The position numbers were made by a program, and so were the translations under genes. A stretch of 64,000 bases of DNA, taken from Parapedobacter indicus (GTDB lineage: Bacteria; Bacteroidota; Bacteroidia; Sphingobacteriales; Sphingobacteriaceae). Below the pieces are notes generated by a model. That model made no database searches. It was not told where the DNA came from and saw only the letters and a program-made list of their open reading frames with translations. Of the stretch, positions 4,389 through 59,665 are shown one piece after another (position 1 is the first letter of the stretch; each line of letters starts with the position of its first letter). The stretch covers positions 310,001 through 374,000 of the forward strand of contig NZ_FOQO01000006.1 in NCBI RefSeq assembly GCF_900113765.1, in the 5' to 3' direction.

Positions 4389-4979
4389 GTGTCGCAACGC
4401 TCATTGTGGAATAAAGTAAGTAAAGGGGATAAAAATGCCTTCGCAAAATGCTTTGACCAATATTGGGAGCCCCTCTACCATGCTGCTTTTTGGCGGGTGT
4501 GCGACGAAGAACTGGCCAAAGATCTGGTACAGGAGGTATTTATTACCCTTTGGGACAAGCGGGCAGACATCGTTATAACGGATAGCCTGCCCGGATACCT
4601 GCACCGGATGCTCCGCAACCGAATTATCAATCATTTCAAAGCAGAGGGAATCCGCCAGAATCATTACCAAGGCTCATCCTATAGCAGTCAGGCAGACGTA
4701 CCGACACCGGAAACGGAAGCGTTATGGAAAGAATCCATCCAACGATACGAAGCCGCGGTAGCTAACCTACCGGAAAAAATGCGGAATATCTTTCTGCTGC
4801 GGCATGAGGAAGGCGCGGCGATTTCCGATGTCGCCGGGCGATTAGGCATTACCGTTCAAACGGTAAAAAACCAATATACTGCCGCCGTGAAACGCATTAA
4901 GCGCGAATTGCTAACGCCAGACGGCAACCAAACCAGTCCGCCCTCTTCAGGATTGCTGGCCGTCACTATTTTTTTCTGA
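4389..4979 (+). CDS. ECF RNA polymerase sigma factor (FecI-like)
   Basis: This 196-residue sigma-70 family protein has region 2 (Q-YWEPLYHAAF through DLVQEVFITLWDKR, about residues 18-56), the Y-L-HRMLRNRIINHFK segment of region 2.4, and a region 4 helix-turn-helix (LPEKMRNIFLLRHEEGAAISDVAGRLGIT, about residues 128-160). It starts with GTG, and no ATG fits upstream within the frame. The hydrophobic tail after the HTH is common in Bacteroidota FecI proteins. It is followed by a FecR anti-sigma gene, an STN-bearing TonB receptor and a DUF4249 lipoprotein, so by the Fec paradigm it should direct transcription of the receptor when the ligand is bound outside. Confidence 0.93.
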   Translation: MSQRSLWNKVSKGDKNAFAKCFDQYWEPLYHAAFWRVCDEELAKDLVQEVFITLWDKRADIVITDSLPGYLHRMLRNRIINHFKAEGIRQNHYQGSSYSSQADVPTPETEALWKESIQRYEAAVANLPEKMRNIFLLRHEEGAAISDVAGRLGITVQTVKNQYTAAVKRIKRELLTPDGNQTSPPSSGLLAVTIFF

Positions 4980-52876: not shown

Positions 52877-53983
52877 TTAATAAACCTTCACCAAATAGAC
52901 ATACTCCTGAATCTTTTTAATTTGATCCGTACGTTTCAATCCATTAAGTGAATTCTTACGATTGATTGTCAATTTACTTGCCAAAGAATCCATCGGAATC
53001 GCTGATATAGATTTTAAAAGCGCCTCTGCTTTAATTGCAAAAGATGCCCCATCAATTCCTGTTTGCTTACCACTGATGATACCAATCACTTGCCCCCTGC
53101 TATCTATCACGGGTCCTCCACTATTGCCGGGATTGACCGGAATGGACAACTGATAAGCCGTAGTATCCCCTGCGTAACCGGTACGCGAACTGAGATACCC
53201 CTGCCCGTAAACTACCTCATCACGCGGAAATCCGATTGTATATACATCTTCACCGAGATCCGAATCCGCTTCTTTAAACGTATAGGGAGTGGTTTTTAGC
53301 GGACTGAAAGCGCTGTCACTGATATGTAACATCGCCAGGTCGTTAGTGGGATCGATGTAAATCACATCTGCCCTCAAGGACTCACCTTTCGTATTCTGCA
53401 AGTGAACGGAATCCGCATCCTTCACCACGTGATAGTTGGTTACGACATACCCGTTAGGAGAGATGATAAAACCCGTGGCACCGAAATGCCCCTCAGATTG
53501 TCCCTCTTTTTGCTTTTCGTTATTGATATTACGTATTACCGCATTTTGTGCATTTACATTCTGCTTGACCGTATTCATATCCCTCCGCAATGCGCTGTAA
53601 TTTGTCGTGGTTTTTTCAATGGTTTTGTAGTATCCAGACAGCCACAATGTCGAAAAAACGGCTACAATTGCCACACTTGCTGCCACCAACGAGTTGACTT
53701 TAAACCGGTTCCATAGGGCAACCAGCATCGGTTCCCAGCGCCCTTCCGCCACGGTGGTATCGGGGCGATGGTATCGGTCTGCTACCACAGCCAGTGTACT
53801 TTTAAAAGCCGCTCGATCTGCGTGATGCTTAAGTTGCTGTAAAAAAAGCCGGTGTGTTGCCAACTGCTCAGCCGCTGCCGGATTCCCTTCACAATACCGT
53901 TCAAAAGCAATGCGTTCGGAGCTATCCATCTCGCCATTGAGGAACCTATCGGCCTGCACTATAAAATCCTGTTCGTTCATCAT
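52877..53983 (-). CDS. Membrane-anchored trypsin-like (S1C/HtrA) protease with anti-sigma-like N-terminus
   Basis: This 368-residue protein has a cytoplasmic N-terminus (about 1-95) with the FLNGEMDSSERIAFERYCEGNPAAAEQ pattern of Bacteroidota anti-sigma factors. A single membrane span follows (about 97-118), then a coiled-coil-like stretch (about 120-158), then a trypsin-like domain with the complete triad His185 (TNYHVV), Asp215 (NDLAML) and Ser288 (GNSGGP). No PDZ domain is seen. The ECF sigma gene is just upstream (6-base gap) in the same direction, where a FecR or RseA-type partner would normally sit. Thus it looks like a sigma-binding anchor with a periplasmic protease. The fusion is my inference from the domain layout. 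Confidence 0.85.
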   Translation of the reverse strand: MMNEQDFIVQADRFLNGEMDSSERIAFERYCEGNPAAAEQLATHRLFLQQLKHHADRAAFKSTLAVVADRYHRPDTTVAEGRWEPMLVALWNRFKVNSLVAASVAIVAVFSTLWLSGYYKTIEKTTTNYSALRRDMNTVKQNVNAQNAVIRNINNEKQKEGQSEGHFGATGFIISPNGYVVTNYHVVKDADSVHLQNTKGESLRADVIYIDPTNDLAMLHISDSAFSPLKTTPYTFKEADSDLGEDVYTIGFPRDEVVYGQGYLSSRTGYAGDTTAYQLSIPVNPGNSGGPVIDSRGQVIGIISGKQTGIDGASFAIKAEALLKSISAIPMDSLASKLTINRKNSLNGLKRTDQIKKIQEYVYLVKVY

Positions 53984-53989
53984 ATCCGT

Positions 53990-54562
53990 TCACCTAGTTG
54001 AAAAAAACAATCGCTTTAACCGCTGCAGGCATTTATATTTTTGGTTTTTTGCGTTATCTGCGCTGGTATATCCAAATTTTTCACAAATTTCCTGCATGGA
54101 TAAATTCATTATATAAAAGTCATGGATAATGGTCCGGCAAGGTTCACCCAATTTATCCAACGCCTGTTCCATCAAAGACAGCTGCACTTCAGTTTCTCGA
54201 TGTTTTGCTAAGTCATCCTCTACCGGAATAACTTCCTCATAACTACTGACGTCTTGAAACGCCCGCTCTTGGCTTCCCAGCTGTTTGAGCCACAGTCTCC
54301 GGCATACCGAGTAAATATAGGTCTTTAGTTTGCTGCTTAATTCAAAATTTCCCTGCTTAATCTTGTCATACAATACGATTACCGCTTCCTGAAAAATATC
54401 TTTTGCCTCCTCCTCCGTACCATTGTTCTGAATCACCATATGCAGTACCATGGGGAAATAATCGTGATATAAGCTTTCCAAAACTGCAGCATCACCACAC
54501 GCAATGCCATCCACGGTTTTCAAGTCAGCGTCCGACACAACCGATCTATTTAACTTACTCAC
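53990..54562 (-). CDS. ECF RNA polymerase sigma factor
   Basis: The 190-residue protein has region 2 (LESLYHDYFPMVLHMVIQNNGTEEEAKDIFQEAVIVLYDKI in parts, about 28-68), the LKTYIYSVCRRLWLKQLG region 2.4 helix, and region 4 (LGEPCRTIIHDFYIMNLSMQEICEKFGYT, about 133-165). Its neighbour 6 bases downstream is the membrane-anchored trypsin-like protein, an unusual partner. A TAGGTTTG -7 motif lies 44 bases upstream of the start. Confidence 0.92.
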   Translation of the reverse strand: MSKLNRSVVSDADLKTVDGIACGDAAVLESLYHDYFPMVLHMVIQNNGTEEEAKDIFQEAVIVLYDKIKQGNFELSSKLKTYIYSVCRRLWLKQLGSQERAFQDVSSYEEVIPVEDDLAKHRETEVQLSLMEQALDKLGEPCRTIIHDFYIMNLSMQEICEKFGYTSADNAKNQKYKCLQRLKRLFFSTR

Positions 54563-54605
54563 CTATTAATACGCTTATGCCCAAAATGTAACCCTTATCC
54601 CTCAC

Positions 54606-58587: not shown

Positions 58588-59085
58588 ATGAGTAAGCAGC
58601 GACAATTGTTCCAGCAACTGTTTGAAGATAACTCCAAAAAGGTGTATCACTTGTGTTATGGATATACAGGTGACAGCGATTCGGCAAACGATTTAATGCA
58701 GGAGACATTTATTAAAGTTTGGCAGAATCTGGATAAATTCAGAAACGAGTCCCAATTTTCCACCTGGATATACCGTATTGCCGTAAATACCTGCCTTTCA
58801 TACCTACGCACGGTCAAGCGCCGCACGACAGACGAATTGAACGATACCATCATTGAAAATTACGCAGAAGAACCGTCAGAAAAACAGGAACAGATTGCGC
58901 TGCTCTATAAGTCCATCTCCCAACTGGATGAAAATGAACGTATCATCATTACCATGGTATTGGACGAAATACCGTATCCCGAAATTGCCGAAGTAGCTGG
59001 GATCTCTGAAGGCAACTTACGGGTAAAAATACATCGGATAAAACATAAGCTGACAGAAATATACAACAGTAATGAAAGGCTTTGA
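58588..59085 (+). CDS. ECF RNA polymerase sigma factor
   Basis: The 165-residue protein is a compact ECF sigma: region 2 (GYTGDSDSANDLMQETFIKVWQNLDKF, about 26-55) and FSTWIYRIAVNTCLSYLR, then region 4 (LDENERIIITMVLDEIPYPEIAEVAGISEGN, about 113-145) ending in LRVKIHRIKHKL. The next gene overlaps its end by 14 bases and encodes a membrane protein, so the two are co-translated and the membrane protein may be its regulator. There is no FecR/TonB partner. Confidence 0.93.
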   Translation: MSKQRQLFQQLFEDNSKKVYHLCYGYTGDSDSANDLMQETFIKVWQNLDKFRNESQFSTWIYRIAVNTCLSYLRTVKRRTTDELNDTIIENYAEEPSEKQEQIALLYKSISQLDENERIIITMVLDEIPYPEIAEVAGISEGNLRVKIHRIKHKLTEIYNSNERL

Positions 59086-59665
59086 TGAGATACAACAGCT
59101 TTGGCAGGGGCAGAAACCGGAGCCAAACGTTAGCTTTGACACGATTTTAAAACGTCTTAAAAGCAATCGGACCGCCCTAATGAGAAAATTGTTTTGGCAA
59201 AGTATAGCCGTTGGCATAGTTGTTCTGACCGCTTTGTGGATCGGCCTCGCGGTAGACTTCTCAACATGGACCACCTATCTGGCGCTCGCCATCATGGTGG
59301 GATGTATCGCCTATTATTTTGTCAACCAACTAACTGACTACAAAAACATCAGCCGAAGCAGTCATTTACTATCCAAGCCACAGGACTACATTAATTACCT
59401 ACGGGCTTTCCAGCAAAAACGCAACCGGTTCAATACACGGAACTATCTAATTTACGAGATCTGCATCGCTGCTGCATTTGCTTTATACGGTATCGAGATG
59501 TATTTTATATTGCCTCTTTTGACATTCGTCGGCATTTTTCTCTTCGTCATTTTCTGGTTCCTGATCTGCCATTTCGTGTTCATGAAACAGTACATCAACA
59601 GTGAGAATATGCGGATAGAAGAGATGATTGATAATCTGGAACGGATAAAAAATCAGTTCGAATAA
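59072..59665 (+). CDS. Multi-span membrane protein coupled to the sigma factor
   Basis: The 197-residue protein begins inside the sigma gene (14-base overlap). Its N-terminal about 45 residues (MKGFDEIQQLWQGQKPEPN then basic residues) are cytoplasmic. Four hydrophobic spans follow (about 40-62, 68-86, 124-143 and 146-170). It has no FecR or zinc anti-sigma motif. The C-terminal 25 residues are charged and helical. The arrangement suggests an anti-sigma factor of the multi-span type, but the family is not recognised. It converges with the DUF2520 gene, overlapping its end by 13 bases. Confidence 0.75.
   Translation: MKGFDEIQQLWQGQKPEPNVSFDTILKRLKSNRTALMRKLFWQSIAVGIVVLTALWIGLAVDFSTWTTYLALAIMVGCIAYYFVNQLTDYKNISRSSHLLSKPQDYINYLRAFQQKRNRFNTRNYLIYEICIAAAFALYGIEMYFILPLLTFVGIFLFVIFWFLICHFVFMKQYINSENMRIEEMIDNLERIKNQFE

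Follow-up and report, generated by a model that had tools for sequence, protein, structure and literature searches.

A sigma factor gene followed by a membrane-anchored trypsin-like protease in Parapedobacter indicus: a candidate anti-sigma factor carrying its own protease

How is a sigma factor of the extracytoplasmic function (ECF) type held when the gene that follows it encodes a membrane-anchored protease? The question is raised by two adjacent genes in a 64,000-nucleotide stretch of the Parapedobacter indicus genome (contig NZ_FOQO01000006.1, positions 310,001 to 374,000), which was analysed as a whole and is called the window here. It has a wider side as well: of the ECFs of all phyla taken together, 32% are reported to have a class I anti-sigma factor beside them, and for Bacteroidetes the figure is only 6% (PMC7406223), so that how these bacteria hold their many ECFs is a standing question. 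Our reading, to which we give a probability of about 0.6, is that the two genes encode an ECF sigma factor and its membrane anti-sigma factor, the latter carrying its own HtrA/DegS-like protease, and that this fusion of an RseA-like with a DegS-like part controls its own expression and that of a lipoprotein. The binding of sigma and the cleavage of the fusion in this reading are inferred from sequence. The features concerned are the following, in window coordinates.

53990..54562, minus strand: ECF-type sigma factor of 190 amino acids (Sigma70_r2, TIGR02937; AlphaFold2 model)
52877-53983, minus strand: open reading frame (ORF) of the fusion protease, the partner of sigma, 368 amino acids
53759..53983, minus strand: fusion residues 1-75, helical anti-sigma-type module, presumed cytoplasmic (AlphaFold2 helices; profile matches next to ECF genes; weak zf-HC2 and anti-sigma matches in relatives)
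53630..53692, minus strand: membrane span of the fusion, residues about 98-118 (hydropathy; AlphaFold2 helix 86-115)
53489..53629, minus strand: stalk, residues 119-165, presumed periplasmic and a possible site-1 region (AlphaFold2 helix 129-156 of low confidence; entropy)
52880..53488, minus strand: trypsin-like (S1C-like) protease domain, residues 166-368, triad H185/D215/S288, no PDZ (Pfam; residues; fold)
54566..54594, minus strand: promoter-like element GGGTTAC-N15-GTATTAA before the sigma gene (-35-like box 54588-54594, -10-like box 54566-54572)

Both ORFs lie on the minus strand, sigma first, and their coordinates leave a gap of 6 bases, as a first-pass annotation of this DNA had it. 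The same annotation proposed a search for the pair in other Bacteroidota, where it was found to be conserved: a sigma gene lies directly upstream on the same strand in 377 of the 379 loci read, the two misses (L224, L400) being contig edges, and all 377 paired loci have the H, D and S of the triad. In being encoded beside its own ECF gene the fusion has the position of a class I anti-sigma factor (ASDI). The pairing rules out that the two genes are chance neighbours. The loci read (L001, L003-L086, L112-L139 and L141-L406) are a subset of the matches. A weak second match in the P. indicus genome (L002) and loci with the protease part only (L087-L111 and L140) were excluded before counting; L087-L111, from other lineages, are 25 of the 80 loci kept from a set of 128 matches, and among the excluded loci only L140 was examined for an adjoining sigma gene. 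The loci counted cannot be treated as independent of one another, some species being present under named and unnamed records, and they amount to 350 distinct pairs with an effective number of 212 at 80% identity.

In the family to which P. indicus belongs (f1) a match to the fusion was found in 382 of 399 genomes at E<=1e-20, a few weak ones of which may be other HtrA-like proteins. The family labels are our own. At E<=1e-70 the fusion was found in 229 of 244 genomes of f2, in 150/150 of f9 and in 41/150 of f10. An even draw over the phylum gave matches in 40 of 395 genomes (E<=1e-30); 29 of the 40, P. indicus included, belong to these four families, and the match in the other 11 starts at model position 85 or later, so that it does not include the N-terminal module. 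In three families the majority of the genomes sampled carry the fusion, in a fourth a part of them do, and it adjoins a sigma gene wherever the locus could be read to its end. An orthologue from P. defluvii, of the same genus, is 89% identical.

The first of the two proteins can be classed as an ECF sigma factor, having regions 2 and 4 only in a length of about 190 residues. The NCBIfam model TIGR02937 (sigma70-ECF) matches residues 28-184 with 77.6 bits against a cut-off of 42.9, and Pfam Sigma70_r2 is above its cut-off; Sigma70_r4 is below, with 12.9 where 24.1 are needed. Residues 161-180, by position region 4.2, the reader of the -35 box, are almost invariant among 71 distinct sequences. 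The FecI-like subfamily of the Bacteroidota was ruled out, its model TIGR02985 reaching 55.7 of the 126.4 bits needed. The P. indicus genome contains 34 sigma-like matches at E<=0.001.

The evidence that the partner is an anti-sigma factor comes chiefly from its N-terminus. On the N-terminus of the window's own fusion every curated family stays below its cut-off. Weak matches to this part were obtained among 42 members and lean largely in one direction, namely zf-HC2 in 19 (best E=2.9e-4), 'anti-sigma factor' NF052375 in 10 (best 1.3e-4) and 'putative anti-sigmaE' in 6, together with competing matches to the unrelated CP12 in 6 and to hemerythrin in 2, the last with a better best E-value (4.9e-5). 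Comparison by sequence with solved structures gave a best E of 0.057, with no anti-sigma factor among the 60 matches listed of 132. The most telling test ran the other way, a profile made from the N-terminus only being applied to the P. indicus genome. It gave 14 matches at E<=10, and each of the best 8 is immediately preceded by an ECF gene on its own strand. This holds for 11 of the 14; one of the others has an ECF gene on the opposite strand, and two have none in the locus. By arithmetic, the stretches just downstream of the sigma-like matches are well under 1% of the genome, because there are only 34 such matches. Since the proteins ranking highest with its profile are encoded immediately after ECF genes, the fusion N-terminus is, by this criterion of position, an anti-sigma-type module that also occurs alone or on other C-terminal halves. 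The anti-sigma position and anti-sigma-like N-terminus proposed by the first-pass annotation are thus supported, the latter by matches genome-wide.

This N-terminus also follows each of the three paralogues in the genome that are nearest to the window's sigma factor (L421:2876-3665, L422:2463-3708 and L423:2501-3822, on contigs 29, 8 and 28). In L421 it is the module alone, of 89 amino acids, and in L422 and L423 the module is followed by a membrane span and a longer half that is TPR-like by eye. The same profile weakly matches the N-terminus of a protein that is FecR-like by eye (L434). A draw of 148 genomes over the phylum yielded a match in 77 of them (E<=0.01). Counting was confined to 29 further loci that were returned and read, of which 12 encode the fusion and 17 have other C-terminal halves, and 15 of the 17 lie directly downstream of an ECF gene; the two misses are L467 and L468, the second near a contig start. 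The module marks further likely anti-sigma factors in this way.

The AlphaFold2 model of the fusion (52 sequences, mean pLDDT 78) places helices at residues 4-15, 21-33 and 35-72, a membrane helix at 86-115 and a stalk helix of low confidence at 129-156, followed by a trypsin fold. Class I anti-sigma factors are defined by an N-terminal helical domain of a three-helix bundle plus helix 4, and helix 4 is given as the main contact of sigma region 2 (PMC7406223); against this scheme the model has two shorter helices and a single long one, 35-72, and no family is at its cut-off. Taking the single best stretch of 19 residues by hydropathy, the peak begins at residue 99. A helical N-terminus and a membrane span, both expected from the first reading of the sequence, agree with these helices and with the hydropathy peak. 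Mean pLDDT in ten-residue blocks is 77-92 for residues 1-70 and 70-94 for residues 171-368, and it falls to 41-55 for residues 121-170; because of this low confidence, the coiled-coil-like linker that had been described there could not be established.

A protease with His185, Asp215 and Ser288 and lacking a PDZ domain had also been described, and the residues read directly (NYHVV, NDLAML and GNSGGP, respectively) agree with it. Pfam Trypsin_2 covers residues 169-302 with E=1e-27, and PDZ gave no Pfam match to the fusion at E<=1. In a Foldseek comparison with solved structures, the top-ranked folds for the protease were DegS delta-PDZ chains. The trypsin-like domain with its Ser-His-Asp triad is as in HtrA and DegS, and the C-terminal PDZ of that class is missing. 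Since, in addition, degP_htrA_DO (NCBIfam) scores 99 bits where 416.2 are needed, the fusion is not filed as HtrA, and an ordinary HtrA is ruled out. No FecR family matched at E<=1 in the Pfam scan, nor was a FecR-type C-terminal half or a SusC/TonB neighbour found. The C-terminal beta-barrel of the Dma type is likewise absent, the model and Pfam giving a protease fold instead. Within the fusion, conservation is highest in the protease, as judged from 71 distinct sequences. Stalk residues 131-150 (mean entropy 1.49 and 1.70) are below every ten-residue block of residues 1-90 except 11-20 (1.48).

What would cut the stalk? Self-cleavage by the fused protease is plausible, because the one chain is kept, the triad is invariant and there is a precedent in HtrAw of Brevibacillus, whose HtrA membrane anchor is removed by substrate-induced, intermolecular autoprocessing (PMC5359297). 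The main rival is a conventional regulated intramembrane proteolysis, in which the fusion is the anti-sigma factor, a separate protease (DegS-like, or a signal peptidase) cuts site 1, and the trypsin domain is an output enzyme for other periplasmic substrates. We hold this to be possible, though on the unlikely side. The reviewed site-1 proteases DegS, DegP, SipS, SipT and Prc are separate chains (PMC7593790), a free-standing relative of the protease domain exists in another Bacteroidota family, and conservation of the triad fits an output enzyme equally well; but this rival leaves unexplained why, in the loci read, the enzyme remains fused to the anti-sigma module. The free-standing relative (L140:1161-2414) begins by eye with a signal-peptide-like sequence and has, also by eye, a similar C-terminal tail, and its 3.3-kb locus contains no sigma gene.

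If the fusion holds the sigma factor, which genes would the freed sigma transcribe? The upstream regions of the sigma genes have in common the sequence GGGTTAC-N15/16-GTATTAA. Of 374 upstream regions, 327 have both boxes in a first scan, which required at least 6/7 letters in one box and at least 5/7 in the other; ten rounds of shuffled regions gave 2-7, and in 274 of the 374 both boxes are letter-perfect. A wider scan with the same thresholds, run without a shuffled control of its own over the 200 nt before the called ORF and its first 60 nt, found them in 368 of 377 loci; three of the nine misses have almost no upstream sequence. In the window the annotated start of sigma is a GTG only 3 nt after the -10-like box (start and box together at 54560-54572), and the true start codon is therefore uncertain: the sigma transcript may be leaderless, or the annotated start may be wrong.

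In nine genomes of the genus the pattern GGTTACN{15,16}GTATTA occurs at 27 sites, 18 of which are at two common places, the sigma promoter (9/9 genomes) and a lipoprotein gene (9/9 genomes). The element spacers have diverged in this comparison and the boxes have not. The second site lies 45-49 nt before a gene for a lipoprotein of 66-70 amino acids, which reads MKNxFKFGFLGL...AAC and is then rich in Ser, Thr, Asp and Glu; these genes were found genus-wide by the motif alone and not by a composition criterion. The neighbours of the lipoprotein gene are alike in the four genus loci checked. In P. indicus the gene with its element (L497, minus strand, from 1501 of the strand; G000:C29:67261-67287) is on a contig other than that of the sigma operon.

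A lipoprotein gene of this kind may also stand next to the sigma gene. Among the 307 loci for which 300 nt or more of upstream sequence were available, 128 have a divergent gene for a small Ser/Thr/Asp/Glu-rich lipoprotein beside sigma (f10 40/42, f9 28/36, f2 31/115, f1 26/109, other Cytophagales 3/5, with Larkinella and Adhaeribacter records assigned by judgement), and the same ORF criterion selected a gene downstream of the protease in 1 of 194. On the own strand of the divergent gene the motif is present in tolerant form in 123/128 (shuffled 0/128) and in near-exact form in 65. The 116 distinct lipoproteins have a median length of 67 and a mature part of 25% Thr, 14% Ser and 10% Asp with almost no aromatics, a richness partly built in because the ORF criterion asked for more than 40% Ser/Thr/Asp/Glu. 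Pfam gave nothing above cut-off for the three lipoproteins submitted. The conserved promoter-like element, the lipoprotein gene that shares it and an N-terminal loss in part of f10, described below, go beyond the first-pass annotation; through the first two a promoter-like element and one candidate target gene can be named for the sigma factor. The conserved pair and the common promoter-like sequence point to a compact, so far unstudied circuit that would sense the state of the envelope.

In the reading we prefer, the N-terminal module would keep sigma bound at the inner membrane. The state of the protease would change with a signal from the periplasm, for which the first-pass annotation suggested peptide or envelope damage, and the stalk would be cut by the fused protease, in cis or in trans, or by another protease. 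The stub left by this cut would then be cleaved by an M50 site-2 protease, a family (PF02163) with one match in the genome, and the freed sigma would transcribe its own operon and the gene of the small Ser/Thr/Asp/Glu-rich lipoprotein. A more specific version, in which RseA and DegS are one chain in the full sense, makes the protease both sensor and site-1 protease, each molecule probably cutting the stalk of a neighbour, with the lipoprotein, as the main output, serving as gauge, substrate or inhibitor in a loop. Under it the protease would stay quiet as long as export of the lipoprotein from the inner membrane runs normally, and stalled lipoproteins or similar chains near the anchored protease would switch it on. 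We offer this version as a speculation and think it improbable as a whole; self-cleavage, if true, would mean that the best-studied pathway of envelope stress exists here in a form with a single chain. Lower still do we place a positive or scaffold role beyond inhibition, by which the fusion would bring sigma to the membrane or aid it as a pro-sigma factor, as some FecR-like proteins do.

Several results weigh against a sigma-holding fusion with a protease of its own, or give it no clear support. Couplings between sigma and fusion were computed from the 350 distinct pairs given above. The periplasmic protease domain, which is not expected to touch sigma, served as the comparison domain. The N-terminus was not enriched relative to it among the top inter-protein couplings by mean-field direct coupling analysis (DCA), by pseudolikelihood or with variable columns only, the last test giving, at ten cut-offs, p values between 0.07 and 0.96 for residues 1-75. 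A test of helix 4 against the interface of sigma regions 2.1/2.2, with positions taken from PMC7406223, was split by method. With pseudolikelihood, control windows, which overlap in both methods, reached the observed value in 1/246 cases for the top-5, 0/246 for the share above 2 sd and 80/246 for the mean; with mean-field DCA the test was mostly negative, 34, 190 and 201 of 234 windows reaching it. When partners were shuffled within clusters, the top-50 coupling mean of 0.0724 was in slight excess of the 0.0652-0.0708 of eight shuffles, and the top-10 mean and the maximum were inside the shuffled range. As the reversed control gave 31 sites in the genus and the motif itself 27, raw motif counts mean nothing, and the case for the element rests on where it is placed and on the tests of the loci. 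A plain quality-control protease would equally need an intact triad.

Part of f10 has, in addition, lost the beginning of the module. Of the f10 matches, 30/41 begin at model position 27 or later, and residues 1 to about 36 are missing in 22 of 42 rows with sigma kept (e.g. L122, L125, L209-L216, L356-L360), compared with 1 of 57 rows in f9 (L353). In the shortened f10 loci a lipoprotein gene is usually still divergent to sigma, and three of them (L209, L214, L215) have a stop codon within the match. Either helix 35-72 suffices in these forms, which would fit the role of helix 4 (PMC7406223), or regulation has changed there.

Could the N-terminus then be an ordinary cytoplasmic tail, with sigma merely in an operon with a membrane protease? 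The absence of a curated family at cut-off, the lack of enrichment in variable-column couplings and the disagreement of methods over the published interface would suit such a tail, as would a blind zf-HC2 search of 21 genomes, which matched the N-terminus in only 1 of the 13 searched family genomes that carry the protein and missed it in 12. That one match (L414, E=0.0037, below the cut-off) is, however, an orthologue N-terminus among just 14 zf-HC2 matches at E<=0.01, and a mere tail does not account for a profile that recovers ECF-downstream proteins genome-wide, the stand-alone 89-residue form and the FecR-like L434 among them. An ordinary tail is, in our judgement, highly improbable.

The pair is flanked by ORFs that were named by eye as peroxiredoxin-like and transporter-like. 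The window contains a second ECF sigma gene (58588-59085, plus strand) overlapping the gene of a small membrane protein (59072-59665, plus strand), which has hydrophobic stretches by eye and no Pfam family above cut-off; the two are probably another sigma/anti-sigma pair, of a different type. A third ECF-like gene, at about 4413-4910 on the plus strand (G000:C18:314413-314910), was found by its similarity to the sigma factor.

How does the fusion compare with systems already described? The literature searched gave no description of a Bacteroidota protein in which an ECF anti-sigma factor and a trypsin-like protease are fused; the ECF re-classification (10.1093/nar/gkaa1229) may list the group. 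Dma (PMC13088901), as described there, is similar in that a Bacteroidota ECF lies beside an anti-sigma factor with an N-terminal sigma-binding module, a membrane helix and a fused outer part, but Dma has a disordered tether and a C-terminal beta-barrel, whereas the window protein ends in a serine protease. The FecR-type anti-sigma factors of the P. indicus genome (L424-L428, named by eye) are also adjacent to ECF genes, and one such N-terminus (L434) is weakly matched by the module profile; they differ in having a FecR-like C-terminal half, SusC-like genes beside several of them (by eye) and no protease. The autoproteolysis of RsgI in Clostridium thermocellum is not known to be carried out by a trypsin-like triad. 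The RsgI proteins are membrane anti-sigma factors with varied outer modules, like the fusion, but their partners are sigma-I factors and not ECFs (PMC12203970), and an essential autoproteolysis is reported in the title of Chen 2023. HtrAw is, like the fusion, a membrane-anchored trypsin-like protease, and processes itself off its own anchor; unlike the fusion it has a PDZ domain, and the abstract mentions no anti-sigma module or sigma partner (PMC5359297). In RpoE/RseA/DegS/RseP of E. coli the anti-sigma factor and the protease are two chains and a PDZ sensor domain is present, whereas here the module and the protease form one chain lacking PDZ. In our reading both have an ECF sigma factor, a membrane anti-sigma factor with a cytoplasmic N-terminus and a DegS-like fold, and in both the genome encodes an M50 site-2 protease. 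In its logic the system would correspond to RseA plus DegS, and Dma already provides an example of fused anti-sigma factors in the phylum (PMC13088901).
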